The notes beneath the pieces were generated by a model. It did not search any database, was not told the origin of the DNA, and was given only the letters and a program-made list of their open reading frames with translations. Position numbers and translations under genes: made by a program. Positions 4,477 through 19,524 of a DNA stretch of 22,786 bases are shown in pieces (the first letter of the stretch is position 1; each line of letters begins with the position of its first letter). Source of the DNA: a virus; the IMG/VR virus record IMGVR_UViG_3300033571_016602, positions 1 to 22,786 of that record; one strand, written 5' to 3'.

Positions 4477-4547
4477 ATCTCACCACCGACGGCCACGGCG
4501 TGATGAGCCGCACCTGGCTGGAAAACCATTTCACCGCTGAATCCTGA
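4359..4547 (+). CDS. Minus-one-frame extension of the HTH-like gene
   Basis: 62 codons in the -1 frame after the heptamer A AAA AAT. The end of the product (RLRLTYITRSTVDFLNLTTD, then MSRTWLENHF) has ordinary protein composition while the zero frame does not. The stop overlaps the ATG of the replication gene (TGATG). If no frameshift occurs, this segment could be a separate small protein started from GTG 4402. A homopolymer sequencing error would give the same picture. Confidence 0.5.
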   Translation, partial: SARRGDARRAPVVGAVWRDAQGQTRLRLTYITRSTVDFLNLTTDGHGVMSRTWLENHFTAES

Positions 4548-5536
4548 TGCACAAATATCTCCGCCATCTCGGCGACTACGCCAAGGACACCAAGCACCTT
4601 TCCATGCTGGAGCACGGTGCCTACAACCAGATGCTGGATTGGTGCTATGCGGCCGAAAAACCGCTGCCCACCGATGAAAAGGCCCTTTTCCGGCTTTGCT
4701 CCGCGTTTGACAAAGCCGAGCAGCAGGCCGTGCGCTCGATCCGTGACGAGTTCTTTGTGCTCACCGAGGACGGTTACACGCAGAAACGCGTGCTGGAAGA
4801 GATCGCCGATTACAAAGACAAGGCAGCCAAAGCGGCCCGTGCAGCGGATAAGCGTTGGCAAAGCGAACGCAATGCGGACGCAATGCAGACGCATAGCGAA
4901 CGCAATGCGGACGGTATGCCTCGCGCGCGCGTTCCGATAACCGATAACCATAAACCGATAACCAACTTCTTGTCCGCACCTGACGGTGCTGGACCGAACG
5001 GCGATGGCGCTGCCCCGGCTTCCGCTGCTGAACTCGAACCCGATTCTGGCCAGAAAAAAAAGAAAGGGGGCGCGGTGCTGGATGGCATTCAGCCCTTGGC
5101 GTGGACCGCAGAGGCGGGTTGGCAGGGATTCACGCAGGATCTGTGGGACGAGCTGGCGCTGGCTTATCCGGCCTGCGACATCCGGCGGCAGATGCTCGCC
5201 ATGGAGCAGTGGCTCAAGGCGAATCCGGCCAAGGCCCGCAAGAGCAACTGGCGGAAGTTTGTCACCAACTGGCTCGCCAAGGAGCAGGACCGCGGCGGCG
5301 ATCTGCGCGGCATGGCTCAGCCAGCTTGGGCAGGGTTGGCCGCCAAAAAAGACGGGGCGGCGGAAAAGCCGTTGCTGACGATCGAGGCCGCGCCGGAGGG
5401 CCATGAGCAGGCCATGCAGGCGCTGTTTGGCGAGCAGTGGCGCGAGATGTGCCCCGCGTGGCCGCAAATGACCGCCAGTGACAAGTCGCAGGTTCGCGCC
5501 TGGCTGCGAGAGCAGCATGGAAAGGAGGCGGCGTGA
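4547..5536 (+). CDS. DUF1376-type phage replication protein
   Basis: 329 aa. The N-terminal ~90 residues (HLGDYAKDTKHLSMLEHGAY, then LDWCYAAEKPLPTDEKALFRL and EIADYKDKA) match the DUF1376/YdaU pattern found in phage replisome-organiser proteins next to helicase genes. The middle (residues ~100-180) is low-complexity and is encoded by direct repeats that look like origin iterons. The C-terminal part (residues ~185-325) is helical and Trp-rich (KSNWRKFVTNWLAKEQDR), perhaps for helicase loading. It overlaps the helicase gene by four bases (GTGA). Known for the family: association with replication. Inferred: origin binding. Confidence 0.8.
   Translation: MHKYLRHLGDYAKDTKHLSMLEHGAYNQMLDWCYAAEKPLPTDEKALFRLCSAFDKAEQQAVRSIRDEFFVLTEDGYTQKRVLEEIADYKDKAAKAARAADKRWQSERNADAMQTHSERNADGMPRARVPITDNHKPITNFLSAPDGAGPNGDGAAPASAAELEPDSGQKKKKGGAVLDGIQPLAWTAEAGWQGFTQDLWDELALAYPACDIRRQMLAMEQWLKANPAKARKSNWRKFVTNWLAKEQDRGGDLRGMAQPAWAGLAAKKDGAAEKPLLTIEAAPEGHEQAMQALFGEQWREMCPAWPQMTASDKSQVRAWLREQHGKEAA
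4862..4964 (+). repeat. Iteron-like direct repeats inside the replication gene
   Basis: AGCGAACGCAATGCGGACG occurs twice (4862-4880 and 4895-4913). Then CCGATAACC-type units occur three times (4934-4964) in an AT-rich stretch. Phage lambda has its origin in the same position, inside the O gene. Confidence 0.6.
5053..5071 (+). repeat. Poly-A/GAAA/poly-G element, copy d
   Basis: GAAAAAAAAGAAAGGGGGC in the hinge of the replication gene, translated as KKKKGG. It contains an in-frame A AAA AAG heptamer. The -1 frame after it is open to 5406 but has shadow-like composition. Confidence 0.55.
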
Positions 5537-7221
5537 GCACCGAAAACACCCTGCCGCCCGACCGCAAACCGGACGCCAGCACCGAGGCCAAGCTGGCGCG
5601 TATCAATCGCGCCATGCCGGCGGCTCCGGATGCGGAGAAGGGATTGCTTTCCTGCCTGCTGCAAGATCCGGAGCGCATCACGGAGGTGCGTTCGCGGCTG
5701 AGCGTGGAATCGTTTTACCATCCAGCGCACCAGACCGTTTATGAGACGATGCTGGGGCTGATCGATGGGAACAAGCCCGTGGAGCCGGTGACGCTGACGC
5801 ACACGCTGCGCGAGCTTGGGAAGCTCGATTTTGTCGGCGGCGCGGCGGAAATCAGCGATCTGTTTTCCTTCACGCCGATTGCGGCGCATTACCCGTTTTA
5901 TCTGCGCATCGTGCGTGAAAAGTGGATGCTGCGCAGCACCATTCATGCCTGTGCGGAAAGCATCGAGGAGTGCTTTGAGCACGGCAAAGAGCAAAACGAT
6001 GAGGATGCCACCTCGGTGATTGGCCGCGCGGAGAGTCGCGTGTTTGATTGCGTGCAGGCCATGCAGACCAGCGGCGAGTATTCGACGGGCCCGGTGCTGG
6101 CCGCGCGCGGCGTGGTGGACTGGGTGGACCGCACCGAGGCCACGATTGCGAACCGTGGCAAAATCATGGGCCTCGAAACCGGCATTCTGGAGTTGGATCA
6201 GACCGTGCACGGGCTCGATGATGCCCAGGGTGAGATCGTAGTGATCGCAGGCCGTCCAGGCCAAGGCAAGACGGCCATGGCCACCACGCTGATCCATAAT
6301 CTGGCCGTGACTCGCAATGTGCCGGGCCTTGTGTTCAGCGCGGAGATGAGCGGCGTGCAGCTTTACGATCGCATCATTCTCGGCGGTTCCAGCATCGACA
6401 CCAGCAAGGCCATCACGGGCATGTTTTCCCGCGCCGATCAGGAGGCCATGAGCCTGAAGGTGCGCGAGGTGCAGCGCGCGCCGTTGCTGATCTCCGACGG
6501 TGGCGCGATCACCACGGCAGACATCCGCAGCCAGGTGCAGGTGGCCAAACGCAAGCACGGCATCCGCTGGATCGTGGTGGATCACCTGCACCTGATCAAA
6601 GCGGTGTCGAAGCGCGGGCTAAAAGATGAGCGCGAGGCACTGGTGGAGGTCATGGAGACGCTGCAATTTGTGAAGAAGCACTACAAGCTCGTGGTGCTGC
6701 TCATGGTGCAGCTCAATCGCGAGACAGACCGCAACGCAGGCAAACCGCCCGTGCTGGCCGATCTGAGCGGCAGCGCGGCCATTGAATGGTATGCAGACCA
6801 TGTGTGGATGCTGCACCGTGATCCGTATTTCTTCGGCTGGCACACGCTGAGCGATGAGAAGAAGCGCGGCTGGCAGGACGCGGTGGAGCCTCGCCGCGAG
6901 CGCAATCCGCAGTGCTGGAGCAGCGGCGACAAATACGGCGAAGAAGACGGCGGCTGGCCGCGCGAGGACTACGAGCAGGACGCCAAAATCTACGTGCGCA
7001 AGAATCGCCGAGGCCCCACGCCGGAGCTGCACGTGCGGTTTGAAGACTGGCGCACGTGGTTCAGCAGCCGCATGCCAAAACTCAACAGCGCCGACTGGCG
7101 CGACTGGCAGTTTGGCAGCTATGCCGTGCCCAAAAAGCCCAAGGCCGAGAAAACCGGATGGTCGAACAAGGGCAAAGGCAAAGCCGCTGACGACGGCTGG
7201 GACGATGATTTCAAAAGCTGA
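5533..7221 (+). CDS. dnaB: Replicative DNA helicase, DnaB family
   Basis: 562 aa from GTG 5533, overlapping the upstream stop. The N-terminal domain carries the DnaB signature (PDAEKGLLSCLLQDPERI). The RecA-like domain shows Walker A GRPGQGKT at residues 240-247, Walker B WIVVDHL around 346-352 and the QLNRETD segment typical of DnaB motif H4. It is longer than the usual ~450-470 aa because of a C-terminal extension rich in Trp, Lys and Asp (KAEKTGWSNKGKGKAADDGW). It unwinds DNA at the fork as a hexamer. Its partners are probably the DUF1376 protein upstream and SSB downstream. No separate primase is seen in the window. Confidence 0.92.
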   Translation: MSTENTLPPDRKPDASTEAKLARINRAMPAAPDAEKGLLSCLLQDPERITEVRSRLSVESFYHPAHQTVYETMLGLIDGNKPVEPVTLTHTLRELGKLDFVGGAAEISDLFSFTPIAAHYPFYLRIVREKWMLRSTIHACAESIEECFEHGKEQNDEDATSVIGRAESRVFDCVQAMQTSGEYSTGPVLAARGVVDWVDRTEATIANRGKIMGLETGILELDQTVHGLDDAQGEIVVIAGRPGQGKTAMATTLIHNLAVTRNVPGLVFSAEMSGVQLYDRIILGGSSIDTSKAITGMFSRADQEAMSLKVREVQRAPLLISDGGAITTADIRSQVQVAKRKHGIRWIVVDHLHLIKAVSKRGLKDEREALVEVMETLQFVKKHYKLVVLLMVQLNRETDRNAGKPPVLADLSGSAAIEWYADHVWMLHRDPYFFGWHTLSDEKKRGWQDAVEPRRERNPQCWSSGDKYGEEDGGWPREDYEQDAKIYVRKNRRGPTPELHVRFEDWRTWFSSRMPKLNSADWRDWQFGSYAVPKKPKAEKTGWSNKGKGKAADDGWDDDFKS

Positions 7222-7259: not shown

Positions 7260-7691
7260 ATGAACAAACTGATTCAAAAAGGCAACATCACGCGCGAGCT
7301 GGAATTGCGCTATACGCCCACCGGCACGCCGGTGGTGGATTTTGGGATCGCCGTGAACCGCGCGTGGAAGGACAGCAGCGGCACCAAGCATGAAGCGGTG
7401 ACTTTCACCGACTGGCGATGCTGGGGCCCATCGGCGGAGACGCTGGTGAAATGCTTCCACAAAGGCAAGCCCATCCTGCTGGAAGGTCGGCTGGAGCAAG
7501 ACGAATGGACCGACAAGCAAACCGGCGAGAAACGCCGCAAAACGCTGGGCGTGGTGGAGAGCTGGCACTTTGCGGGCGACACGCGCGCCGGTGGCAAAGC
7601 CTCCGAACCTCCGCCGCCGGACAGCAGCAAACGGCCCGCGCCGCCGGTGGATGGTCAACTGAGCCCCGAAGACGACGAAATTCCGTTTTAA
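7260..7691 (+). CDS. ssb: Single-stranded DNA-binding protein
   Basis: 143 aa. The OB-fold spans residues 1-105 (NKLIQKGNITRELELRYTPT, VDFGIAVNRAW, VTFTDWRCWGPSAE, GKPILLEGRLEQDEW). A Pro-rich linker leads to the acidic tip DDEIPF, which in bacterial SSBs recruits replication and repair proteins. The leader (CAACACACACAACACATG) has no Shine-Dalgarno. It follows the helicase and completes the replication module. Confidence 0.93.
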   Translation: MNKLIQKGNITRELELRYTPTGTPVVDFGIAVNRAWKDSSGTKHEAVTFTDWRCWGPSAETLVKCFHKGKPILLEGRLEQDEWTDKQTGEKRRKTLGVVESWHFAGDTRAGGKASEPPPPDSSKRPAPPVDGQLSPEDDEIPF

Positions 7692-7694
7692 ACC

Positions 7695-8339
7695 ATGAGC
7701 ACCCCTGCCCTTCCCTTGACTTTGCCTGGTGGTGAACCGCTGCCGCCGCCGCCCGCGGCTGGATGGCGCGAGCACACGGCCGGCCGATTCCGCGAACAGG
7801 ACGCCGAAGGCTACGCGTTCGCCTGCTATCTCGTGCGCGAGCTTGGCATCACCAACAAATCGGAGATCGTGCGCCTCGTCGATGAGCACCGCGAGGCCCG
7901 GCAATTGGATGGCATCTCGCGCAACACCATCATTGCGTTGATGAATGATCCCACCGAGTTCAAAGCGGGCGAGATCGAGGACATCATCCGGCGTCGCTCC
8001 CTGCTCACCAGCGCTGATGCGTTGGACAAGGTGGAGGAACTGCTGAGCAAAGCCAAGTCCGCCAAAGACCTCGGCGCTGCCGCCATGGCCCTGACGAGCG
8101 TTTACAACGTCAAGCAGCTCAGCAGCGGCGGAGCCACGCGAATCAGTGGCAACACGCAGGACAGCACGAAGGCCAAAGGCTTCGACCACTTCATGCAGCT
8201 CGCCCAGGCCGAACTGCAAAAACGCCAGCAAACTGTTCTCGCCACAGCGCTGCCGGACGATTCCGGCCGCGTGGTGATCGAGGCGGAGACGGTGGCGGTG
8301 AGCGACCAGAATCAGGGACCGCGAACCCAGGACTCATGA
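7695..8339 (+). CDS. Hypothetical protein, candidate small terminase subunit
   Basis: 214 aa. After a Pro-rich N-terminus comes a helical region with an HTH-like stretch (LVRELGITNKSEIVRLVDEH), then long helices (TSADALDKVEELLSKAKSAK). No family is certain. The small-terminase idea rests on size, helical architecture and position: if the accessory island at 8340-11038 is set aside, this gene lies directly before the large terminase. The last residues (VSDQNQGPRTQDS) are encoded by the arm of attC-like site 4, so its natural C-terminus has probably been altered by insertion. Confidence 0.5.
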   Translation: MSTPALPLTLPGGEPLPPPPAAGWREHTAGRFREQDAEGYAFACYLVRELGITNKSEIVRLVDEHREARQLDGISRNTIIALMNDPTEFKAGEIEDIIRRRSLLTSADALDKVEELLSKAKSAKDLGAAAMALTSVYNVKQLSSGGATRISGNTQDSTKAKGFDHFMQLAQAELQKRQQTVLATALPDDSGRVVIEAETVAVSDQNQGPRTQDS

Positions 8340-8388
8340 ATACACTACAGACAGCCCCGAGCGGTTCCCTGCATTCTGCTTGTTATGC
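8300..8388 (+). other. attC-like recombination site 4
   Basis: 89 bp. The left arm GAGCGAC CAGAATCAGGGACCGC pairs with the right arm GCGGTTCCCTGCATTCTG followed by core GTTATGC. The right arm has one unpaired base (TGCAGG against TCAGG). The loop and right arm are close to those of sites 1 and 5. The left core is degenerate (GAGCGAC in place of RYYYAAC). Confidence 0.7.
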
Positions 8389-9160
8389 CTCTCCGTGTGG
8401 CCGAGTGACGTTGTATTTGGGTGACTGTATGGACATCATGCCGCGCCTGACTGGCATAGACTCGGTTATCTCAGATCCGCCGTTCAGTTCACGGACTCAT
8501 GCCGGACATGATGCGGTAAAAGGCGCGGGGCTGACTGCAAAAGATGGAAGCCCCACAGTCCGCGAGGTCATCAGCTATGGAGCATGGGGCGATGAAGAGG
8601 TGGCGGCAGTCTGCCGGATGCTGCCTGCGCACGGCTGGGCGTGCATCATCACAGATCACGTTCTCGCCCGCGACTGGGAACGCCGAATGAAGGAAGCTGG
8701 GCGCTACGTCTTCGCGCCGATACCAGTAATCGCACGCGGGCGCTCAGTGAGACTCACTGGAGATGGCCCAAGCTCATGGACTGACTGGCTGATACCGGCC
8801 CGCACAAAGGCGGAAATCAAATGGGGGACGCTGCCGGGAGTCTATGAAGGGAACAAGACAAGCATCGAGCACAAGGGCGGAAAGCCGCTGAACGCTATGT
8901 GCCGCATCGTGGAGGACTACAGCCGAGAGGGCGACACTGTGCTAGACTTCTGCATGGGAGCAGCAACAACGGGCGTCGCCTGCCTCCGCACGGGTAGAAA
9001 CTTCGTCGGTATCGAGCGCGACCCCACGCACTACGCGAACGCTCTACAACGCATCACGAACGAACTGGCCCAAGGCGATCTTTTCGCGGGGCATAACGTG
9101 GAGGTCAGGCAAAAACAGGGCGCGCTCGACTCCACTTCACCCCCGACAAAAACGCCCTGA
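8336..9160 (+). CDS. DNA methyltransferase (N4/N6-type), cassette gene
   Basis: 274 aa from ATG 8336, which overlaps the previous stop and lies in the loop of attC-like site 4; GTG 8405, past the core, is an alternative. Catalytic motif IV is DPPF (residues 47-50). The AdoMet-binding motif I follows near the C-terminus (LDFCMGAATTG, residues ~203-213), the beta-class order. Family knowledge: such enzymes methylate adenine N6 or cytosine N4, and phages use them against host restriction. No restriction enzyme is nearby. The tail (VRQKQGALDSTSPPTKTP) is encoded by attC-like site 6. Codon use is less GC-biased than in the head genes, consistent with transfer. Confidence 0.88.
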   Translation: MNTLQTAPSGSLHSACYASPCGRVTLYLGDCMDIMPRLTGIDSVISDPPFSSRTHAGHDAVKGAGLTAKDGSPTVREVISYGAWGDEEVAAVCRMLPAHGWACIITDHVLARDWERRMKEAGRYVFAPIPVIARGRSVRLTGDGPSSWTDWLIPARTKAEIKWGTLPGVYEGNKTSIEHKGGKPLNAMCRIVEDYSREGDTVLDFCMGAATTGVACLRTGRNFVGIERDPTHYANALQRITNELAQGDLFAGHNVEVRQKQGALDSTSPPTKTP

Positions 9161-9186
9161 TTTTTGCATGCACCGTTGTGTTATGC
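9091..9186 (+). other. attC-like recombination site 6
   Basis: 96 bp, the best paired of the set. Left GCATAAC ... CAGGCAAAAACAGGGCG against right CGCCCTGATTTTTGCATG ... GTTATGC; terminal cores are exact inverse complements (GCATAAC/GTTATGC). The right arm carries extra bases (TGCATGC against TCAGGC). It lies between the methyltransferase, which ends in its loop, and the small gene at 9212. Confidence 0.8.
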
Positions 9187-9211
9187 CCGAACAACCCAAA
9201 ACATCACTACC

Positions 9212-9394
9212 ATGAAACCGAACAAACCTGAAGACCCCGAGAAAATCAAAAATGAACGCGATGTGCTGCTCTCCACAGTGCAGTCGGCGCAACGCCGTGA
9301 ACTGGAAGCAAACCGCACCATCGAACTGCTGGTGCTGGCCGGACACGTCAAAGAGGATCGAGTGGCCCAAGCGCGTGAACTCGCCAAGGCATAA
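9212..9394 (+). CDS. Small helical protein, hypothetical
   Basis: 60 aa from ATG 9212, 26 bases past the GTTATGC core of site 6; the frame is open further upstream into the attC. Wholly helical and charged (EKIKNERDVLLSTVQSAQRR, then ELAKA). The leader CCCAAAACATCACTACC is C/A-rich with no Shine-Dalgarno. The stop lies in GGCATAACACCC, a core-like sequence. Function unknown. Confidence 0.6.
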   Translation: MKPNKPEDPEKIKNERDVLLSTVQSAQRRELEANRTIELLVLAGHVKEDRVAQARELAKA

Positions 9395-9414
9395 CACCCA
9401 AACTCACACACCGC

Positions 9415-9663
9415 ATGAGCGCCGCTGACTCCGCAACCACGAACGACACAACCGCGAATGCGGTTGTGGTGCAGTGCCCTTGTTCGGCTTCGTGTCGAAC
9501 TTGCAAACACTGGTCCGAGCAAAATGAGGGATTTGGGACGTGTGCCAATGCCGCGAACCGCGAGCTTTTGCGGGTGCTGGGCGGATACATGCTCTGCCAT
9601 GCTGCTTTTGGGTGTGTGGTGCATGAGCCGAACAGTGATTATCCACACCAAAAGGGTGAATAA
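9415..9663 (+). CDS. Cys-rich small protein, putative zinc-binding
   Basis: 82 aa with seven Cys (CPCSASCRTCKHW, then GTCANA, MLCHAAFGCVVHEP). The spacing and the W-G-C/FGC pattern resemble small phage proteins with a knuckle-like metal site, function unknown. The last ten residues (NSDYPHQKGE) are identical to the end of the unrelated gene at 14007-14303, because both end in the same 53-bp repeat. Confidence 0.65.
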   Translation: MSAADSATTNDTTANAVVVQCPCSASCRTCKHWSEQNEGFGTCANAANRELLRVLGGYMLCHAAFGCVVHEPNSDYPHQKGE

Positions 9664-9682
9664 CACCCGCAATTCCACACCA
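9630..9682 (+). repeat. 53-bp repeat, copy 1, with hairpin and DnaA-box-like sequence
   Basis: Differs from the copy at 14270-14322 by one base (9665 A, 14305 G). It spans the last codons of one gene and the leader of the next. It contains TTATCCACA (9639-9647), identical to the consensus DnaA box, in a hairpin ATTATCCACACC-AAAA-GGGTGAATAA with one bulged A. Confidence 0.9.
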
Positions 9683-10716
9683 TGAAACTCAACGAGATGC
9701 TTGAACAAGTGCGAATCACCTGCCGCATGCGGCGGTTGTCGTGGCAGACAGAGCAGTGTTATGCGGGATGGATTGCGCGTTTTGCGCGGCATGTGGCCCG
9801 ATGTGGCGACGTGACGCGGGAGGAGAAGGTGCGCTTGTTTCTGGAACAACTGGCACAGCGGTGCTCGGCATCGACGCAGAACCAGGCTTTGAACGCCATC
9901 GTGTTTTTGTATCGCGATGTGATCAAGGAGCCGCTGCAAGACATCGGGCCGTGGGCGCGGGCGAAACGGCCCAAGCGGCTGCCCACCTGGCTGGCACCGG
10001 AGGAAATGCGGCGCATGCTGGAGGTGATGCCATCGGGCACGCGATTGATGGCGGAGCTGGCTTATGGATCGGGCCTGCGCATCGCGGAGCTGCTGGCGCT
10101 GCGCGTGAAGGACATCGACCTGAGCGCCCGGCTGGTCACGGTGCGCGGCGGCAAAGGCGACAAGGATCGCGTGACGTGCCTGCCGCAATCGCTGGTGTTC
10201 CGTTTGCAGGCGCACCTTGAGCGGGTTCGCGTGCTGTATGATCAGGACCGCGCTGCCGGTGCTGCGCCGATCTACCTGCCGAATGGACTGGAGCGCAAGT
10301 TCCCCAATGGCGGACGAGAGTGGACGTGGTTCTGGCTTTTCCCGGCCGGGCAGGAGTCGCGTGATCCGCGGCTCGGGAACTGGCGGCGGCATCATGTGCA
10401 TGAAAACACGCTGGGCAAAGCGCTCAAACTGGCAGCCCGGCGTGCGGGCCTCACCAAGCGCGTCACGGCCCACACGCTGCGCCATTCCTTTGCCACGAAT
10501 CTGCTGGCCGGTGGCGCCAGCATCACGCAGGTGCAGGAATTGCTCGGGCACAACAGCGTGGAAACCACGCAGGTGTATCTGCACTGCATCCCGCAGTTTG
10601 CCCAAACGATCACCAGCCCGCTGGATGCGCTGCCACAAGTGGCTAAGGTGGTGCCGTTTCAAAACGAAGATGCGGGCAGGAGTGCCCGCGCTCCCGTGGT
10701 AAGGAGGGCGGCATGA
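9682..10716 (+). CDS. intI: Integron integrase (IntI-family tyrosine recombinase)
   Basis: 344 aa, normal IntI length. Core-binding domain: residues 1-~100. Catalytic residues: R133 (YGSGLRIAEL), K158 region (GGKGDKDR), H264 and R267 (HTLRHSFATNLL), H290 (LLGHNSVETT) and Y299. The diagnostic IntI insert is present at residues ~200-222 (LERKFPNGGREWTWFWLFPA); XerC/D and ordinary phage integrases lack it. The C-terminal SPLDALP motif also matches IntI proteins. IntI enzymes recombine attI and folded single-stranded attC sites. Here it lies in an accessory island inside phage packaging genes, and its stop overlaps the next ATG (ATGA). The last ~15 residues come from a 24-bp hairpin repeat shared with the gene at 20257. 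No classical attI or LexA box is seen. Confidence 0.95.
   Translation: MKLNEMLEQVRITCRMRRLSWQTEQCYAGWIARFARHVARCGDVTREEKVRLFLEQLAQRCSASTQNQALNAIVFLYRDVIKEPLQDIGPWARAKRPKRLPTWLAPEEMRRMLEVMPSGTRLMAELAYGSGLRIAELLALRVKDIDLSARLVTVRGGKGDKDRVTCLPQSLVFRLQAHLERVRVLYDQDRAAGAAPIYLPNGLERKFPNGGREWTWFWLFPAGQESRDPRLGNWRRHHVHENTLGKALKLAARRAGLTKRVTAHTLRHSFATNLLAGGASITQVQELLGHNSVETTQVYLHCIPQFAQTITSPLDALPQVAKVVPFQNEDAGRSARAPVVRRAA
10672..10695 (+). repeat. 24-bp REP-like hairpin, copy 1
   Basis: GCGGGCA-GGAG-TGCCCGC, a perfect 7-bp stem, followed by GCTCCC. It is identical to 20637-20660. It lies in the 3' end of intI and encodes AGRSARAP. Confidence 0.85.
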
Positions 10717-11042
10717 GTGCGATACAGCCGACACCGGAAACCGATCAAGCGTGGGCAAAGTGGCCTTATGCTGGGCCGGGAGTTCATGCAAACTTTGCCC
10801 GCAAACTGGAACGTGAGCGCGACGAGGCCCAAGAACGTGCCGAATCCAAACACGGGCTTTGGATGGCCGAACTAAGCCGCGTGACAGAGCTTGAAAAGCA
10901 ACTCGAAGCCATGCGCAAGGCAATGCGCGAAGCCGCTGCCATTGTCGCCCAAATCCCCGTGGCCTATGATCACCGATTCTTCCGTGCCGGGCAATGGGCA
11001 AACGCAGCCCTCGCCCAACTCCAGCCTCATCCTTGCCCATGA
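10713..11042 (+). CDS. Small coiled-coil phage protein
   Basis: 109 aa, ATG overlapping the integrase stop, with AAGGAGGG upstream. The central region (NFARKLERERDEAQERAESK, then ELEKQLEAMRKAMREAA) is a heptad-type coiled coil; the start (PTPETDQAW) recurs in small phage proteins of unknown role. Its end overlaps the terminase ATG (ATGA), so integrase, this gene and terminase form one coupled unit. Confidence 0.7.
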   Translation: MSAIQPTPETDQAWAKWPYAGPGVHANFARKLERERDEAQERAESKHGLWMAELSRVTELEKQLEAMRKAMREAAAIVAQIPVAYDHRFFRAGQWANAALAQLQPHPCP

Positions 11043-13033
11043 CCCCCGACGCCCAAACCCTCGCTTTCCAACTTCTCGCCGATTCGCAGCAGCATCATGG
11101 CATGCTGCCCAAGTTCACGGTGGATCAACTCATGGCCCTCGGGCCGGACGATGCAGTGGCGGCGATCGAGGCGCGGCGGGCGCGGATCGCGCTGGCGGAT
11201 GAGGATCACTACAACCATGGCTGGTTCTTCAAATCGTGGGACGGCATCTTGTGGGAGACGTGTCGGCTGCGGGTGGATAATCCGGGCGTGCCGGTCACCA
11301 TGGGCATCGGTGGCTCCAATGGCTCGGGCAAATCCATGGCGCTGGCGCGATTCCTGACGCTGGCGATGGAGCAGTGCGCGCCCGATCAACCGGAGCACCA
11401 GCGCACGTTTTGGACGTTCAGTTACGACGACGACAAAAGCGCGGAGGTGATCGAGAGCCAAATGCGATTCTGGCAACCGAATGAATACAAGACCGAAACC
11501 GGCCGGCTGAAAAAGCTCGCCAATCAAAAGATGGCCTACGATCGCGCCGGAGGATTCACGAACAACGAATGTGCGGTGATGAGCGGAGCGGTGTGCCGGT
11601 TCAAAACGTGGGCGCAGGACATCGGCAAGCTGGAAGGACCGCGCCCGACGTGCTCGTGGGGTGATGAGGCCGTTCCGGTGCAGGTGCTGGAAGCCGTCGA
11701 AAACCGCCTGCTCACCGCAGCAGAGTGGACGCACCAGAACATGCCGCGGTGGAAGGAATTGCTGGCGCAAAAGGAGCGCGAGCCGGAGCTGGCGTTTCCG
11801 CGTGAGCTGATCGGCCGCGTGATGGTCGGCGTGCAGTTTGTCACCTACACCTTCCGCGATGGCTACACGGACACCGTGCGCTGGTTCATGGATGGCAGCA
11901 AGGTGATGCGCGAGATCGAGGCCGATCCCGAGCTGCTGCCGCGTCGCGATGCCGATGGCAACATCCTGGGCGGCGAGCGCTTGCCCTGCCTCGTGCATTG
12001 CAAGAATCCCACGCGGCGGTTCCTGTGGATCTACGCCTGGGACAATCCGCTGGGCGGCAACTGGGACGGGATGAAGAAGGCGGAGAAGGACAGCCCGCGC
12101 AGCAAAAAGCTGTGGAAATGCTACGGCATCGCCGAAGGCACCGCCGATTCACCGTTTCCGAATTTCCATGTGCAGGTGCATGTGCGGCCCATCTCGTGGC
12201 TGCCGCCGCACGATCTCGGCACCTGGTGGATGGCCTGCGATCCAAATGCCACCGGCGGCCGGGCGTGGTTCATGCTCTGGGCCTTTGTGCTCGGCAAAGC
12301 GTGGAATCACTTCTCGCCCGGTGACATCTTCATCGCGCACGAATATCCGCAGACCAATGACAACGTGGTGGTGCCAGGGCAAAGCATCTTCACCGGTGAA
12401 GACTGCGAATGGGCCAAGACCGGAGGCAAGAACGGCATGGGCATCAAAGGCAACGCGCAGAAGCAGTGGCCCGTGGGCTACCAATTCCGCGCCGATGAGA
12501 TCCGCCGCATCGAGGCCAAGCTGGGCCAGCTTCAAGGCGTCGCCGACATGCTCGGCACGCACGAACGCACCATGATCGACGTTTACGGCCGCCGCATCGC
12601 CGACTCGCGCAGCTCCAATGCTGTGAGTGAGAATCAGGACGGCGGCAAGACCATGATCGAATACATGGAGGACAACGGCATCTACTTCACCCAGGCCGGG
12701 CGCGATGCCGGCGGCGAGGCAGGCGGCGGGCGCGTGCTGCCGGGCGAGCAGAACATCAACAGCATGCTCATGTGGAACCGCGAGATCACCGTGCTTGACA
12801 ACAAAACCGGTTTGATGGAAGCTGATCCCCAGCGAGGGCGCGGCCCTCGTGTGCGCATCGCCGACCACTGCACCAATTTGATTGGAGCCCTGCAGAACTA
12901 CCCCGGTTTCGCGGTGCCCGGCGCGTCCACTTCCGCTTGGAAGGACCCCATCGACGTGCTGCGCTACCTCCTGAACGCGAACCCGTGTCATGAGGATTTG
13001 AGCGGCTGGGACTTTGGAGGGGGCAGTTACTGA
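11039..13033 (+). CDS. terL: Large terminase subunit
   Basis: 664 aa from ATG 11039, chosen for the ATGA overlap; the frame is open upstream. The ATPase domain has Walker A GSNGSGKS (residues 92-99) and a Walker B-like CSWGDE (205-210) with the catalytic Glu. The nuclease domain begins near WWMACDPNATGG with the first metal-binding Asp at 401. It drives DNA into the procapsid through the portal and cuts it. At 664 aa it is longer than many TerL proteins (~450-600). The Walker A GSNGSGKS differs from the common GxxxxGKT form. Confidence 0.88.
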   Translation: MTPDAQTLAFQLLADSQQHHGMLPKFTVDQLMALGPDDAVAAIEARRARIALADEDHYNHGWFFKSWDGILWETCRLRVDNPGVPVTMGIGGSNGSGKSMALARFLTLAMEQCAPDQPEHQRTFWTFSYDDDKSAEVIESQMRFWQPNEYKTETGRLKKLANQKMAYDRAGGFTNNECAVMSGAVCRFKTWAQDIGKLEGPRPTCSWGDEAVPVQVLEAVENRLLTAAEWTHQNMPRWKELLAQKEREPELAFPRELIGRVMVGVQFVTYTFRDGYTDTVRWFMDGSKVMREIEADPELLPRRDADGNILGGERLPCLVHCKNPTRRFLWIYAWDNPLGGNWDGMKKAEKDSPRSKKLWKCYGIAEGTADSPFPNFHVQVHVRPISWLPPHDLGTWWMACDPNATGGRAWFMLWAFVLGKAWNHFSPGDIFIAHEYPQTNDNVVVPGQSIFTGEDCEWAKTGGKNGMGIKGNAQKQWPVGYQFRADEIRRIEAKLGQLQGVADMLGTHERTMIDVYGRRIADSRSSNAVSENQDGGKTMIEYMEDNGIYFTQAGRDAGGEAGGGRVLPGEQNINSMLMWNREITVLDNKTGLMEADPQRGRGPRVRIADHCTNLIGALQNYPGFAVPGASTSAWKDPIDVLRYLLNANPCHEDLSGWDFGGGSY

Positions 13034-13037
13034 CCGA

Positions 13038-13052
13038 CCACGCAGGGCGTGG
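13038..13052. terminator. Short hairpin after the terminase gene
   Basis: CCACGC-AGG-GCGTGG, a perfect 6-bp stem five bases after the stop. There is no T-tract, so this may be a repeat remnant, not a terminator. The following AACGACGAAATCAGAATGAC resembles short intergenic repeats I associate with Verrucomicrobiota and Planctomycetota genomes (from memory). Confidence 0.35.
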
Positions 13053-13079
13053 AACGACGAAATCAGAATGACAAATGAC

Positions 13080-13274
13080 ATGAACATCATTGCACAGTTT
13101 ATCTGGACAATCCGTGACGTGTTCGACGTTGTGGGATTGATTATTGTCGTCAGTGTTTTGCTGGCATTGTGGATCTGGCGCAAAATGGATGAACGCGCAT
13201 ATAAAATCGCGGACAAACAACGGCGAAAGATGGCTGAAGCAGCCACCGCAAAACCAAAGGAGGCGCAGCCATGA
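13080..13274 (+). CDS. Small membrane protein
   Basis: 64 aa from ATG 13080 (ATG 13068 is an in-frame alternative). Residues ~12-34 (FDVVGLIIVVSVLLALWIW) form one transmembrane helix, followed by a basic cytoplasmic tail (KIADKQRRKMAEAATAKPKE). The stop overlaps the next ATG. Plausible roles include lysis accessory or exclusion; nothing specific is visible. Confidence 0.65.
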   Translation: MNIIAQFIWTIRDVFDVVGLIIVVSVLLALWIWRKMDERAYKIADKQRRKMAEAATAKPKEAQP

Positions 13275-13639
13275 GTGAATTGACGGCACCGCGTTTGCGC
13301 TGCTACCTTCAGCGGCGTCCTTTTCTGCAGCATCAAACGGATGTGCTGTTGATGCGGGAGCATGAGGGGAAGCGGCATCGACTTCAGATGCAACTGATCG
13401 AAGTGGTGGACGACGCTTGTGAAATGCCTCCGACGTTCACGTTGCGATCCGATGAAGCGCAGGCGCTGGTGGATGAATTGCATCGCAACGGATTCCGGCC
13501 CACCGAGCAAATCCAAGAGCAATCCGCCCTGCCTTACATTACCGCGCATTTGAATGACATGCGGCGGCTGGTGTTTGAGAAGCATAACGTCGAAAATCAG
13601 GCGACGACGAGCGCCAAGCCTGATTTACACGACAGATAG
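13271..13639 (+). CDS. Conserved-looking phage hypothetical protein
   Basis: 122 aa. The segment LRSDEAQALVDELHRNGFRP followed by TAHLNDMRRLVF resembles a small phage protein family that I know only as unnamed (DEAQxLMDELW...HLxDMR). GGAGG lies upstream of ATG 13271. The last ~17 residues (NVENQATTSAKPDLHDR) come from attC-like site 5. Confidence 0.7.
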   Translation: MSELTAPRLRCYLQRRPFLQHQTDVLLMREHEGKRHRLQMQLIEVVDDACEMPPTFTLRSDEAQALVDELHRNGFRPTEQIQEQSALPYITAHLNDMRRLVFEKHNVENQATTSAKPDLHDR

Positions 13640-13674
13640 CCCCCGAGCCGTTGCCTGCATTTTCTTTGTTCTGC
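13582..13674 (+). other. attC-like recombination site 5
   Basis: 93 bp. Left GCATAAC GTCGAAAATCAGGCGACG against right CGTTGCCTGCATTTTCTTT, core GTTCTGC. The right arm has one unpaired base (ATGCAGG against ATCAGG). Loop and right arm (CACGACAGATAGCCCCCGAG) nearly match the complement of site 1. Confidence 0.75.
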
Positions 13675-13686
13675 TTCGATTTACCC

Positions 13687-14010
13687 ATGAATACCCAATA
13701 CAGATTTAGCCTTTGCGTCGAGTGCCCTGATGGCAAACGACATATCCAAGCCTTCAACGTGGACACCTTCGCTGCTCCTCAGCTCCAACCCTACGATCTA
13801 TGCAGCGAGCCGATAACGGCAATGATGGCGGGCGGAGTAATGAGCATGGGAGCTGCCCGCATCGACACGGACAGGAAGCGACTCGCGGAGCAAGTATCCG
13901 CCGCCCTCACTGACGGCATCCTGACCGCCATCAAAGGCCGCGACCTACGCAACGGCTATGAGCAGAACAATAAAACTGTGCCGACCGAGGGCGGCGAAAA
14001 AACACTATGA
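13687..14010 (+). CDS. Hypothetical accessory protein
   Basis: 107 aa from ATG 13687, 12 bases past the core of site 5; the upstream extension is attC sequence. The product is soluble with no clear motif (YRFSLCVECPDGKRHIQAFN, then AARIDTDRKRLAEQVSAAL). The stop overlaps the next ATG (ATGA). Codon use is less GC-rich than in the head genes. Confidence 0.65.
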   Translation: MNTQYRFSLCVECPDGKRHIQAFNVDTFAAPQLQPYDLCSEPITAMMAGGVMSMGAARIDTDRKRLAEQVSAALTDGILTAIKGRDLRNGYEQNNKTVPTEGGEKTL

Positions 14011-14303
14011 AAACACAATCGACTACCACGCCGACCGAAGGTTGGCACCAGTGCCTGGTTCTGGCGTTCAAGCGCCTCAAATACATCCGATTCGGTGAAC
14101 CATATTGGACGCACCGCTACCGCTGGCTCTACCTGCCGTGGGAATGGTCACGCAAGAAAAGCGCACATGGAGGCTGGTTCTTCCTGACATGGCGGACTCC
14201 CATCGAAATGTTCGTCGGAGTCGAAAACCTCTCCCGTTGGCAAAACAAACGCACGGCACGCCGTCGCCAGAACAGTGATTATCCACACCAAAAGGGTGAA
14301 TAA
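14007..14303 (+). CDS. Hypothetical accessory protein, Trp/Arg-rich
   Basis: 98 aa, rich in Trp, Tyr and Arg (YWTHRYRWLYLPWEWSRKKS, then GGWFFLTWRTPIEMF). It ends with NSDYPHQKGE, identical to the end of the gene at 9415-9663, from the second 53-bp repeat. No family is recognised. Confidence 0.6.
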   Translation: MKTQSTTTPTEGWHQCLVLAFKRLKYIRFGEPYWTHRYRWLYLPWEWSRKKSAHGGWFFLTWRTPIEMFVGVENLSRWQNKRTARRRQNSDYPHQKGE

Positions 14304-14322
14304 CGCCCGCAATTCCACACCA
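14270..14322 (+). repeat. 53-bp repeat, copy 2
   Basis: One mismatch to 9630-9682. The same DnaA-box-like TTATCCACA lies at 14279-14287, with the same hairpin. It sits at the junction between the second accessory island and the head genes. Confidence 0.9.
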
Positions 14323-14593: not shown

Positions 14594-16894
14594 ATGAGCG
14601 ATTCCGACGACACCCTGCACGAGCTGGAAACTGAGGCTGCGACCTCAGCGGCCGGCAGCAGCGAGCCATCCCTGCACACTCAAAAACTGGTGGAGGAACT
14701 GGAGCGCGAAACGGGCGATCTGGGGTCCTGGCTGACCACGGCTCGCGCCAATGAGGAGAACCTGCTGGCGATCTGGGACGGGCAAAGCGACGACGCCAAG
14801 AAGTGGGAGAAGAATTACAGCGAGCGCGTGTTTCCGTGGGACGGAGCCAGCGACACGCGGGTGCGGCTGATTGATGCCACCTCCGATGAACTGGCCTGCC
14901 TGTGCGTGATGAGCGTGTTCAGCGCGGATCTGCGTGTGATGGCGATGGAAGCGAGGGACGTGGACGCGGCGGGCCGGGTGCAGACGCTGATCAATTACGA
15001 GCTGAAGCAGCGCCTCCGGGCCGAGCTGTGGCGCGAGCTGAATTTCCTCGCGCAATGGCAGCAATGCTTTGGCCATGCCATCATGCACGTGGGCTGGAAG
15101 CAGGAATGGACAACCGGCCGCGAGTCCCTGAGCGAGCAGCAACTGGCCGAGATGATGGCGCAGGAAGGGCTGATGGAGATGGAGGCGATGACCGGCCAGC
15201 CTGTGGATGAGCAGCAGGCCGTGCTGATTCAGGAGGTGAGCCTTGCCACGGTGCTGGATGCGCTGGAAAGCGGCGGCCGTGCGCGGGAGATCGAGGGGCT
15301 GATCATGCGCCGCTTCCCGACCATCACCGAAAAGCGGGCCAAGCAAATCGTGAAGGACATTCGCGCTGAGGGCGTGGCGGAGTTTCGCCTGCCGGTGGCC
15401 AAACCGGGCCGCCCGACGGTCAAAGCGCTGACTCCGGGCATTGACGTGCTTTATCCCGGCTGGTGCGATGCGGTGACGGATGCACCCTGGGTGGCGATGG
15501 TGGTGCGGCTGAGCGAGCCGGATCTGCGGGCCAAGGTGAACGAAGGCTGGAGCAGCGAGTTCATCGACGCCATGCTGGATGCCGGGCCTTCGCCCGTGCT
15601 CGACACCTCCATTCTGGAGCGCAATTTGAGCAGCCAGGTGAACCGCGTGCCGAATGGCCGCACCCGCGAGAATTTGCAGCGCAGGCTGGAGCGCAATGGC
15701 GAGTGCTACGAGTGCTTTCATGTGTTTGTCCGCGTGGTGGACGAGGAAGGCATTCCCGGCACGCAGGAGCTGGTGCTGCGCCCGGACCTCAAGAGCAAGG
15801 ACGGCGGGCACATTCTCGGGCTGGACCGGCTGCTGGACTACTGGCACGAAGGCGGCTGCTTTGTCGATTTCCGCCGCGAGTGGAAGACGCGCAGCCTGTG
15901 GCAAGCCCGCGGACTGCCGGAGATGCTGGGCCCGTCGCAATGGGAAGTGAAGCATTTGCGGGACAGCCGCATGGATCGCACCAGCCTCGCCACGCTGCCG
16001 CCGACTCGCGTGAATCCGCGCCGCCTGCCGGGCAATCAGGGCAAGTGGGATGTGAAGCCCGGCACCAAGATCCCGGCCACCGAGGGCGACAACACCGATT
16101 TCATGCGCGTGCCGCCGATGGATGGCAGCAGCCTCGAAATGGAGGCCAGCATCCGCCGCGATGCCGCCGATGTGGCCGGACGTGTGCATCCCGAACTGCC
16201 ACCGACGAAGATCGACCTGCAACGCCAGTGGATCGTGAACGGTTTCCTCACGCAGGCCCGCGAGGTGGTGCTGCGCATCCTGTCGCTGGATCAGCAATTC
16301 ATGAGCCCGATTCAGGTGAGCCGCGTGATCGGCTCCGGGCCGATCCCGTATCAGGTGACCCGCGAGGAAATCGCCGGGCAATACGATCTGGTGATGAGCT
16401 TTGACGTGCGCACGCTCGATCCGAAGTTTGTCACCGAGCGCTGGGCGGCCATCAACGAAGCGCTCAAGACCGACCGCAGCGGCGCGCTCAATGACGTGGC
16501 ACTCACTCGCTGGAAGCTGGCCAGCATCGACCCGAATCTGGCCGATCTGGCGATGCTGGACATGCAGGCCAAGAGCAAGCAGGAGGTGGAGGAGGAGCGC
16601 ACCGCGCTCGGCAAGCTCATGCTCGGCATCGAAACGGTGCCGCCGGAGGGTGCCAATGCCCGCGTGCGGCTGGAGACGCTGCAAGGCGAGATCCAGCGCA
16701 ATCCGAAAGCGCTGAGCCAGTATCAGCAAGACCCGCTTTTCCGCGATTCCGTGGACAAACGGCTGGCGAAGTGGGAATTTGACCTCACGCAGCAGGACAA
16801 CGCCCGCATCGGCGCCACCGGCTGGGAGCCTGCGATGAAGGAACCGACCGCGGCGGAGAATCTGGCGGGAGCCACCGGCGTGATGCCGCAATGA
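14594..16894 (+). CDS. Portal protein
   Basis: 766 aa. The segment SERVFPWDGASDTRVRLIDA near residues 75-95 is the conserved entry motif of large portal proteins (FPWDGASxxR). Long helical regions follow, and a Pro/Gly-rich area lies near residue 470-480 (LATLPPTRVNPRRLPGNQGK). It lies between terminase and scaffold, the canonical place. It forms the ring through which DNA enters. Its length fits large podovirus/SU10-like portals better than HK97-type (~400-500 aa). A 790-codon open frame on the opposite strand is a GC-driven shadow. Confidence 0.85.
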   Translation: MSDSDDTLHELETEAATSAAGSSEPSLHTQKLVEELERETGDLGSWLTTARANEENLLAIWDGQSDDAKKWEKNYSERVFPWDGASDTRVRLIDATSDELACLCVMSVFSADLRVMAMEARDVDAAGRVQTLINYELKQRLRAELWRELNFLAQWQQCFGHAIMHVGWKQEWTTGRESLSEQQLAEMMAQEGLMEMEAMTGQPVDEQQAVLIQEVSLATVLDALESGGRAREIEGLIMRRFPTITEKRAKQIVKDIRAEGVAEFRLPVAKPGRPTVKALTPGIDVLYPGWCDAVTDAPWVAMVVRLSEPDLRAKVNEGWSSEFIDAMLDAGPSPVLDTSILERNLSSQVNRVPNGRTRENLQRRLERNGECYECFHVFVRVVDEEGIPGTQELVLRPDLKSKDGGHILGLDRLLDYWHEGGCFVDFRREWKTRSLWQARGLPEMLGPSQWEVKHLRDSRMDRTSLATLPPTRVNPRRLPGNQGKWDVKPGTKIPATEGDNTDFMRVPPMDGSSLEMEASIRRDAADVAGRVHPELPPTKIDLQRQWIVNGFLTQAREVVLRILSLDQQFMSPIQVSRVIGSGPIPYQVTREEIAGQYDLVMSFDVRTLDPKFVTERWAAINEALKTDRSGALNDVALTRWKLASIDPNLADLAMLDMQAKSKQEVEEERTALGKLMLGIETVPPEGANARVRLETLQGEIQRNPKALSQYQQDPLFRDSVDKRLAKWEFDLTQQDNARIGATGWEPAMKEPTAAENLAGATGVMPQ

Positions 16895-16907
16895 CGAATT
16901 TGAAACC

Positions 16908-17174
16908 ATGAGCACGATGCTGATCGAAACCATTCTCGAAGGCGGGCACCTGACGCAGGAGGAATGCCAGAAGGCGCTGGCGGGCAAGCAGGGCACACCG
17001 GAGGTGCAGGCGTGCATCTCGTGGATCGAGTATCACATTGGCCTGGCGCACCAGGACGCGGAGGACCAGCACGGACCGCGGCGAGATGAGGCCTGCGGCG
17101 CGGCCAAGGCGCTGCGAAAACTGCGCGAGGACCTGAAGGAGATGCTGGTGAGCGTGCGGCGGGAGGAAAGCTGA
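16908..17174 (+). CDS. Small helical protein between portal and scaffold
   Basis: 88 aa, helical (AACGAATTTGAAACC leader). Two helices with Leu/Glu heptads (GGHLTQEECQKALAGKQG, then KALRKLREDLKEMLVSVRR). Position suggests a head-assembly accessory role, but no family is recognised. Confidence 0.65.
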   Translation: MSTMLIETILEGGHLTQEECQKALAGKQGTPEVQACISWIEYHIGLAHQDAEDQHGPRRDEACGAAKALRKLREDLKEMLVSVRREES

Positions 17175-17301
17175 GAGGCTTTTTACTATCCCAATCTGCC
17201 CCAATGTGCCCCAATCTATCCGCTGGGAACGGCGGAGGATGACAGAGTGGCAAGGAGTGTGGTTCGGTGGGCCTCATGCGCGGCAGGGCTGTGCATGACT
17301 T
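17175..17301. other. Intergenic gap with three tandem 10-mers
   Basis: 127 bp. CCCAATCTGC, CCCAATGTGC and CCCAATCTAT follow one another at 17190-17219. It may hold a promoter or processing site for the head genes. I see no good -35/-10 pair and no gene. Confidence 0.5.
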
Positions 17302-18486
17302 ATGGCAAAACCATCCAAAGCAGGAGGTGATTCAGCCTCCACTCCCGTTCAGGAAGCGGCACCGCAGCCAGCGGTGGCGCGTGCGGCGTCGGGACGCCGT
17401 GCCGAGAGCCCGGACCTCGCCAAGTCCGAGCAAGCCGCCATGCAGGCGGCGGAAGCCATGGCCGCAGAGCTGGCCGGTGTCGTCATGGACGAGCCGACCG
17501 AGGAAGTGACCAAGAAAGCTGCCGCTGCGAAGAAGGCGGAACCCCAGGCCGATGCTGACGCATCACGCTCCGACGATCCCGACGACGGACCGCAGTTCAA
17601 TCCCGACGCGCCGATTCTGGCCGACGAGGAAGACAACGGCGATCTGACCGACGACGACGCAGCGGCGGAAGGCGCGGCCGAGACAGAAGACGAATCCGAA
17701 CACGAAGACGACGACCCCAAGGTTGCCGCCCTCAAGAAGGAGAACTTCAAGCAGCGCGAGAAGAAGCGCGAGCTTGAGGCGCAGATCAAAGCCCTCGCCG
17801 ATGAAAAAGCCGAGCTGCAACGCAAGCTGTCCACGCTGGAAACCACGCCCACCGCGATGCCGGACCTCGGCATCTACGCGGAGGCCAAAACGGTGACCGA
17901 CGTGGAAAAGCTGGAAGCGCAGCAGAGCCAGTTTGTCGATTACCTGGAAAGCCTGCTGGATGACGTGCAGGAGGTTTACACCCTCCCGACCGCCGCCGGA
18001 CAGGAGCAGGAGTTCACCCGCCAGCAGCTCCGCGATTACCTGCGCGGTGCCAAGGCCAATGTGAAGATGGCCGACAAAGCCCGCAAGGCGCTGCAAATCT
18101 CCCACGAGGCGGAAGCCAAAGCCCGCAAAGTGTATCCCTGGGTGTTTGACCCCAAGGCCAAGAACAACGGCGTGGTGCTCGATCTCGTGCAGGAAACCCC
18201 GGCGCTCAATGCGCTCCCGAACAAAGCCCTGCTGCTTGGCCGTCTGGCCATCGGCAAGATGGTGGAGAGCGGGAAATACTACCTCGTGCCTTACGGGACC
18301 AAGAAGCCCAAGGCGCAGGAAGCGGAGGAACGTCGTCCCACTGTCTCGGCCGCACCGTCTGCCGCGCGCCGCAGCGCCCCACCGGCGCGGACCAAGGAAA
18401 GCGTGCTCGACCGGATCAACCGCGGGGACAGCCAGGCCGCCGAAGAGGCCGCCATGGAACTGCTCAACAGCCATCCCGGCCTGTGA
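17302..18486 (+). CDS. Capsid scaffolding protein
   Basis: 394 aa. A low-complexity Ala/Pro N-terminus is followed by a strongly acidic stretch (residues ~85-140, e.g. DEEDNGDLTDDDAAAEGAAE) and a coiled coil (~140-185, KKENFKQREKKRELEAQIKA). The end is Ala/Arg-rich (SAAPSAARRSAPPARTKESV). This acidic, coiled-coil protein just before the major capsid gene fits a scaffolding protein that is removed during DNA packaging. There is no protease domain. Confidence 0.75.
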   Translation: MAKPSKAGGDSASTPVQEAAPQPAVARAASGRRAESPDLAKSEQAAMQAAEAMAAELAGVVMDEPTEEVTKKAAAAKKAEPQADADASRSDDPDDGPQFNPDAPILADEEDNGDLTDDDAAAEGAAETEDESEHEDDDPKVAALKKENFKQREKKRELEAQIKALADEKAELQRKLSTLETTPTAMPDLGIYAEAKTVTDVEKLEAQQSQFVDYLESLLDDVQEVYTLPTAAGQEQEFTRQQLRDYLRGAKANVKMADKARKALQISHEAEAKARKVYPWVFDPKAKNNGVVLDLVQETPALNALPNKALLLGRLAIGKMVESGKYYLVPYGTKKPKAQEAEERRPTVSAAPSAARRSAPPARTKESVLDRINRGDSQAAEEAAMELLNSHPGL

Positions 18487-18525
18487 GCTCACTCACACCA
18501 AACCCATTCCTGAAAGGACAATACA
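18487..18525 (+). promoter_or_regulatory. Capsid gene leader with strong ribosome-binding site
   Basis: CACCAAACCCATT ... TGAAAGGACA before ATG 18526. The same block with a longer spacer precedes the decoration gene at 19621. These are the clearest Shine-Dalgarno sequences in the late region, as expected for the most abundant virion proteins. Confidence 0.6.
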
Positions 18526-19524
18526 ATGCCTCAAACCTTTGAACGCTCTCAAGTCGGCAAGCGCGAATCGCTTTCCGATGTCATCGCCGTGGCCGATGCC
18601 AAGAAGACGCCCCTCTTTGCCACCATCCGCAAGGGCTCCGACCCTGCCAACAGCCTGTTCTCGTGGCAGGCCGACGCCTACGCCACGCCGCAATCCGGCG
18701 CGATCGTGGACGGCTCCGACGTGAGCACCACCGAAGACGCCGCCGAAAACCGCCGCCTGCTCTCCAACTACACGGAAGAGTTCCGCCGCACGCCCAAAGT
18801 CAGCAAACGCTCGGAGCTCTCCGACGTGGCTGGCATCGGCATGAAGAAGGAAATGGCCAAGGCCATCGTGAAGAAGCAGTTCGAGATCAAGCGCGACATC
18901 GAGGTCGCCTGGTGCTCCGACAACGTGGCGCAGGCCGACAACGGCACCGTCGGCTATCGCGGCCACGGCCTCGGCTCGTGGATCAAAGCCACGGCGCAGA
19001 CCGTGCTCCCGGTGGACAGCCTGTTCCTCACGCCTTCCGCCAGCATCGACACCACCGCGATGGCGTCCCTCACCACCGCTTTGGCGAATGGTGTGATGGA
19101 AAGCCAGTATGGCGTCGTCGGTGCGGAGATGAGCTACATGCTCCTGTGCGGCACCAGCCTGAAAAAGCAGTTCACCAAGATGGTGGGCTATCAGCCCGAC
19201 GTGGCCAGCAACACCGCCATCAAGCGCACCTCCCGCGGCGATGAAGGCAAGTGGATCGACAACATCCAGGTGTTCACCGGCGATTTCGGCACTTACGAGC
19301 TCGTGCTCAGCAACTGGCTCGGCTGGAACTACTCCACCAGCGCCAACAGCACCTATCGCGGCTATGCCCTCGACATGGACATGCTGGAGTGCCGCTGGCA
19401 GCAGCCGGTGAAGTATGACCCGCTTCCTGATCTCGGCGGCGGTCCTCGTGGCGTGATCAGCGCCATCGTGGGCCTGTGCGTCAAGAACCCGAAGGGCCTC
19501 GGCAAATTCGCGGCCACCTCGTAA
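18526..19524 (+). CDS. Major capsid protein, SU10/DUF5309-like
   Basis: 332 aa. The N-terminal pattern (LSDVIAVADAKKTPLFATIR, then NSLFSWQADAYATPQSGAIV and DGSDV) matches SU10/DUF5309 major capsid proteins (TPxxSxIxKG, EWQxD, EGxD). The middle (YTEEFRRTPKVSKRSELSDV, ELVLSNWLGWNYS) is also typical. The HK97 fold is inferred from the family. It assembles on the scaffold upstream and has a strong ribosome-binding site. Confidence 0.85.
   Translation: MPQTFERSQVGKRESLSDVIAVADAKKTPLFATIRKGSDPANSLFSWQADAYATPQSGAIVDGSDVSTTEDAAENRRLLSNYTEEFRRTPKVSKRSELSDVAGIGMKKEMAKAIVKKQFEIKRDIEVAWCSDNVAQADNGTVGYRGHGLGSWIKATAQTVLPVDSLFLTPSASIDTTAMASLTTALANGVMESQYGVVGAEMSYMLLCGTSLKKQFTKMVGYQPDVASNTAIKRTSRGDEGKWIDNIQVFTGDFGTYELVLSNWLGWNYSTSANSTYRGYALDMDMLECRWQQPVKYDPLPDLGGGPRGVISAIVGLCVKNPKGLGKFAATS

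Follow-up and report, generated by a model that had tools for sequence, protein, structure and literature searches.

The stretch of viral DNA analysed here (22,786 nucleotides, hereafter the window; record IMGVR_UViG_3300033571_016602) carries at positions 9682–10716, on the plus strand, a gene for an integron integrase of 344 amino acids (intI). On the same strand upstream lie the genes for a DnaB-like helicase (5533–7221; phrog_19) and SSB (7260–7691; phrog_44), both conserved upstream neighbours in this lineage, and a gene at 7695–8339 that is probably a small terminase or packaging gene as judged from its position and from synteny, its counterpart sitting between intI and terL in relatives. 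Downstream, a small ORF (10713–11042) is followed by the gene for a divergent large terminase (terL, 11039–13033) and then, within 14594–19524, by putative genes at the portal and scaffold positions, assigned by position and synteny only, and by the major head protein gene (18526–19524; phrog_1328, 2e-38), all on the plus strand. The coupling by ATGA from intI to the small ORF and on to the large terminase that the first-pass annotation had described is exact at both overlaps (ATG at 10713 with stop at 10714–10716, and ATG at 11039 with stop at 11040–11042). The same annotation had placed intI in the late gene order; the packaging genes do adjoin it, but intI in fact marks the boundary between the replication genes (DnaB, SSB) and the packaging genes. 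An endolysin and a tail-fibre-like protein are encoded in the same genome. The replication gene at 4547–5536 contains a run of 11-nt repeats (GCAATGCGGAC-like) at 4847–4919, and a similar run is found in the relative L009 near 1993–2068.

The terminase itself gave no match in Pfam or PHROG. A structural model of only moderate quality (mean pLDDT 57), built from eight relatives, matched viral terminases in BFVD (top match 4.2e-26) and the large terminase of D6E in the PDB (1.6e-3), which agrees with its earlier assignment; its Walker A motif, GSNGSGKS, and DE motif are invariant in 8 relatives. A further protein of 2,419 amino acids (L277, 8876–16135) is kept throughout the lineage; hardly any relatives of it are known, and its PHROG matches are only weak.

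The protein encoded at 9682–10716 matches the integron integrase model TIGR02249 at 2.5e-105 and 352 bits, above the curated cut-off of 265, whereas the XerC and XerD models reach approximately 143 bits against cut-offs of approximately 330. The closest solved structure is IntI4 of V. cholerae (2a3v, 9.5e-64), with which the IntI-specific block can be aligned (LERKFPNGGREWTWFWLFPA in the query, LKEKYPNAPYEFRWHYLFPS in IntI4), and the residues R-K-HxxR-H-Y are all intact. In a maximum-likelihood tree with XerD as outgroup the protein lies inside IntI, far from XerD. Model score, aligned block and tree placement thus confirm what the first-pass annotation had proposed, that this is a true integron integrase and not a generic phage integrase. 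Comparison of the phage intI genes gave dN/dS values of 0.05–0.17, and intI is therefore under purifying selection. In one relative (L030 10001–10977, G007 15148–16076) the gene is split over two frames, through either a natural frameshift or a sequencing error; the near-identical L020 has an intact intI.

Relatives of the enzyme that are 61–79% identical to it, the core of its clade, were found at 28 further IMG/VR loci, some of them from the same phage, while no bacterial IntI found exceeded 53% identity. The viral IntIs fall mainly into three all-viral groups of 20, 17 and 3 rows (SH-aLRT 85, 94 and 98), and the window protein belongs to the first, with Verrucomicrobiota rows among its neighbours; since the tree was obtained by a quick search, its deep branches are unsure. 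The enzyme is accordingly not close to the IntI of a bacterial host integron. The other two all-viral clades, one with L037–L066 and one with L050, L057 and L291 (Rctr41k), also have attC sites upstream of intI. A search of IMG/VR showed that the position of intI beside terS and terL recurs, as does the gene order DnaB-SSB-(array)-intI-terS-terL-portal, in contigs of relatives from many samples, and the window is identical to IMG/VR contig 3300032296_003095 (39,247 nt) over all 20,713 bases compared. Chimerism, one of the two outcomes by which the earlier proposal would have fallen, is thereby answered: because of the all-viral clade, the purifying selection and the terS/terL neighbourhood in many samples, intI can be put down neither to misassembly nor to a host gene gone astray.

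Directly upstream of intI, a block reading AAC and then A(G/A)(T/G)(G/A)ATTATCC, followed in most cases by a TTTCCAGATAGCC-like stretch, is kept in approximately 30 loci, whereas the sequence left of AAC varies among the phages. Read on the minus strand, the junction after AAC becomes G followed by TT, as at the crossover of an ordinary attI, and the site points away from intI. The conserved block, its GTT crossover and its variable left side identify it as attI. In the window, attI1 (9627–9682, minus strand) has the R box GCCGAAC (GTTCGGC on the minus strand, with crossover after the first G), and the conserved block runs to the start of intI. A second copy without an adjoining intI, attI2 (14267–14322, minus strand), lies at the end of another array, is 98% identical to attI1 over a 53-nt repeat, and is present in the relative L158 too. 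The 39,247-nt contig contains a third copy near position 38,441 on the minus strand, and a second one is likewise present in the genome of L019. A search of IMG/VR with a 14-base attI pattern returned mostly chance matches; it yielded L158.

Between the genes upstream of intI the sequence folds into hairpins that have R and L boxes and are bulged at one or two bases. These were scored with a covariance model (R1) made from 24 attC sites of other phages, none from the window, in which 11 of the 12 consensus pairs show changes on both sides. With this model ten attC sites were located in the window, at E values from 2e-15 to 0.011. Three of them precede attI1, two precede attI2, and the remaining five lie at 57–1614 on the opposite strand; no other site in the window fell below E 0.05, and Rfam gave no match in the window. 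Of 34 neighbour pairs, 26 have an R' box equal to the R'' box at the far end of the interval (expectation 3.2; 0 of 2000 shuffles), and the bulge lies in the same arm in 49 of 51 attC sites, both counts including a few near-copy loci. Model, covariation and chained R boxes together identify the hairpins as attC sites. On the hairpin strand, all 24 phage sites have C as the bulged base nearest the R box (column 102 of alignment A2). Textbook attC sites have G at this position, and some bacterial sites also have C.

Three cassette arrays with three attI copies in one genome go beyond what the first-pass annotation had claimed, as does the reversed polarity of the cassette genes described below. 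Array 1, before attI1, includes the attC of a methyltransferase cassette (8297–8388, E 6e-11; plus strand as the hairpin strand, minus as top strand), the R'' box of which is degenerate (GGTGAGC, where L158 has GAGAAC). This cassette, the third from attI1, carries a gene for an N6/N4 DNA methyltransferase (8336–9160, plus strand; PF01555, 1.6e-14). The second cassette consists of an attC at 9091–9186 (plus strand), weak by score (E 0.011) and with perfect R boxes (GCATAAC/GTTATGC), and an ORF at 9213–9394 (plus strand) that lies between this attC and the next; the first consists of the attC at 9389–9487 (plus strand, E 9.3e-7) and an ORF at 9415–9663 (plus strand) whose last codons (NSDYPHQKGE and stop) are supplied by attI1. 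Array 2, also on the plus strand, has attC sites at 13582–13674 (E 6e-13), which folds into an R stem, a bubble and a bulged L stem, and at 13962–14064 (E 3.8e-10), adjoining attI2, with cassette ORFs at 13687–14010 and 14007–14303; the latter ends in the same NSDYPHQKGE tail, at attI2. Some ORFs begin within their own attC and end within attI, which gives the last codons. Array 3, on the minus strand, comprises five attC sites with chained R boxes (57–149, 413–550, 809–900, 1125–1217 and 1522–1614; E 2e-15 to 3.5e-5) and four single-ORF cassettes.

Comparison of natural variants showed that cassettes are gained and lost as exact units and shared between phages. L030 and L022 share 2,616 identical nucleotides that end at GGCGAAC, differ from there by a whole cassette, and are again 98–99.6% identical in intI and downstream. 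A 520-nt cassette abuts attI in L003 and lies, 100% identical, inside an array of eleven sites in L005; it occurs in a third context in L004 (99.8%). L005 and L010 have in common a stretch of 1,011 nt (99.8%) bounded by AAC. The two ends of one contig (L021/L281) lie inside the array and give two different versions of it, as expected for a mixed population. This variation points to recombination at the attC and attI sites in nature, and the window IntI would be the enzyme acting on the cassettes. A larger difference separates the window from L158, a close relative (head protein 100%, portal 88%, DnaB 90%), in which one cassette of approximately 490 nt plus attI (5905–6738, minus strand) stands in place of window positions 8307–14270, intI and terL included, with collinearity on both sides. 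Either the block between the att sites moves as a unit, terminase included, or terL lies elsewhere in L158, whose contig is short; the gap may also be an assembly shortcut across the repeats.

The shared cassettes also define the direction of their genes. The unit that moves is the left attC together with the gene to its right. The site is therefore on the 5' side of its gene, and the reading direction of the gene is toward attI and intI. This is settled by the methyltransferase gene, which ends in GGGCATAAC and directly abuts an attC in the window and attI in L028. The class 1 orientation, in which the gene lies 5' of its own attC and the site at its 3' end, was rejected since the shared cassettes carry the left attC and not the right. 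As usual, attI and attC face away from intI; the cassette genes point toward it, along phage transcription. The bulge arm agrees with the canonical attC bottom strand, for which the VCR layout is the reference. Because whole-region ORF counts are noisy at this G+C, Pfam matches on both strands were used as a control: on the plus strand, 11 of 20 cargo ORFs reached the Pfam cut-off, eight as methyltransferases and one each as an RNA ligase, a PAPS-reductase-like protein and an HTH protein, and on the minus strand none of 10 did. Nine of 34 intervals have their longest ORF on the minus strand, and some cassettes may therefore be ORF-less or conventional. In bacterial integrons retrieved with the same query, attC faces the same way and the genes are mostly on the other strand; in the Akkermansiaceae array L085, with attC sites scoring 80 bits to the phage model, genes with signal-peptide-like starts face away from intI. 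The other viral IntI clades show what may be a similar polarity tendency. The new point is polarity: cassette genes are inverted relative to their attC.

With the identity of IntI, the attI and attC sites, the exact gain, loss and sharing of cassettes and the direction of the genes all shown at the level of sequence, we consider it very probable that this is an integron of a tailed-phage lineage, in use in nature, in which IntI joins attI and attC, the flipped cassette genes are read with the phage operon, and accessory genes are probably exchanged quickly. IntI would cut the folded plus strand of attC and join it to attI; every new cassette would thereby enter beside intI, at the boundary of replication and packaging genes, and the extra attI copies in the same genome would receive cassettes as well. 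Because it is inverted inside its cassette, each gene would read toward intI, terS and terL, join the phage operon and need no integron promoter; were a Pc to point away from intI, its transcripts would be antisense to the flipped genes, and transcription by the phage is assumed instead. Such an integron probably serves to exchange short accessory genes quickly, foremost methyltransferases, by which phage DNA may be masked from restriction. The host is probably a member of the Verrucomicrobiota, to which the tree neighbours, the likeness of attC and syntenic phage regions in two genomes of one order point; since a search of 387 genomes of that order found only two distant, integrase-less terminase relatives, the host is only suggested.

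The array differences themselves could have come from homologous recombination between co-infecting phages, with an IntI that is no longer at work. The long, identical flanks of the variants would fit this, as would some shared cassettes that are 92–95% identical, as after exchange between lineages, but the breakpoints lie exactly at AAC on both sides with unrelated sequence adjoining, and a relic would not keep strong purifying selection and all catalytic residues; we regard this account as improbable. Even less credit can be given to IntI as an ordinary lysogeny integrase, with the attI block as attP. In favour of this reading, intI is a tyrosine recombinase gene with a conserved site adjoining, and the sequence alone is compatible with an IntI-like enzyme in that role. 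Several attI copies and chained attC hairpins are nevertheless unlike attP, what varies beside the site is a cassette and not host DNA, and the genome has a second tyrosine recombinase (L277 16787–18313, 508 amino acids). The latter is very divergent, adjoins the third attI copy, has a weak match to phrog_1 (7.6e-4) and, with homologs in three other contigs, keeps R-K-HxxR-Y across four phages, and is a better candidate for lysogeny than IntI. No prophage of the lineage with its flanks was found.

A host chromosomal integron acquired by chance, or fused to a phage through misassembly, is very unlikely in our judgement. The known integrons of Vibrio and Shewanella phages are pieces of this kind (PMC9892861), and the phage attC sites resemble an Akkermansiaceae array. 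Against this, the all-viral clade at 61–79% identity contrasts with at most 53% to bacteria, on which grounds a host-derived phage integron was rejected; the place by terS and terL is fixed in many samples, dN/dS for intI is low, as given above, and the cassette genes are oriented opposite to those of bacterial arrays. There is perhaps an even chance of a broader scenario, in which phages took up integrons at least three times, as the three all-viral IntI clades would suggest, and made a phage form of them, with flipped genes, one IntI serving several attI sites, a shared pool of DNA-modification cassettes and perhaps a mobile intI-terL block.

No other known system matches integrons in importance for storing up and reshuffling promoterless genes, and the origin of cassettes and their travel from cell to cell are open questions. 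An integron kept by a phage lineage opens a viral route of travel to cassettes and allows a test of whether they are built by phages. Judging by the flipped polarity, the direction of a cassette gene may follow the local transcription unit, which bears on cassette formation, and the cargo suggests a modular counter-restriction in which methyltransferase genes are exchanged as cassettes at a fixed site. Searches of the open-access literature turned up neither a phage lineage that has an IntI clade to itself nor flipped cassettes, and within that scope both are likely to be novel.

Among bacterial systems, the reverse integrons of Treponema denticola have intI turned toward attI and cassettes downstream (PMC3607928, PMC7691350), whereas the window has the usual intI/attI layout and a gene turned inside the cassette. 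A reverse integron of this type was rejected since attI lies at the 5' side of intI, which is thus not transcribed toward it. Sedentary chromosomal integrons of Verrucomicrobiota (such as L077 and L085) share with the window the divergent intI/attI layout and very similar attC sites, but, as in class 1, their genes point away from intI, and their IntI is at most 53% identical. The virus Rctr41k (KX853513), a phage genome from an enrichment culture, has an IntI-like gene (annotated xerD) with same-strand upstream genes and methyltransferases nearby; its IntI is of another viral clade than that of the window.

The first-pass annotation knew of no well-described phage using IntI in its late gene order. 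Integrons as such are known from phages: complete integrons have been described in temperate phages and integrase-less arrays (CALINs) in virulent phages (Qi et al., 2023; PMC9892861). Phage attC sites were found to recombine with IntI1, among them five of six tested CALIN sites of virulent phages (PMC9892861). The CALIN phages TJE1, P12002L and PH101 likewise carry attC cassettes, in P12002L with methyltransferase cargo (PMC9892861), but have no integrase gene, whereas the window phage has intI. Vibrio Va_90-11-286_p16, Shewanella M16-3 and P1 L-II also have intI, attI, attC and cassettes in a phage genome, and methyltransferases are cargo in some of the phage arrays, as in the window lineage (PMC9892861). 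The integrons of those temperate phages are, however, pieces of host chromosomal or class 1 integrons (PMC9892861), while the window lineage is set apart from them by its own viral IntI clade, a fixed place by terS and terL, extra attI sites and flipped genes.
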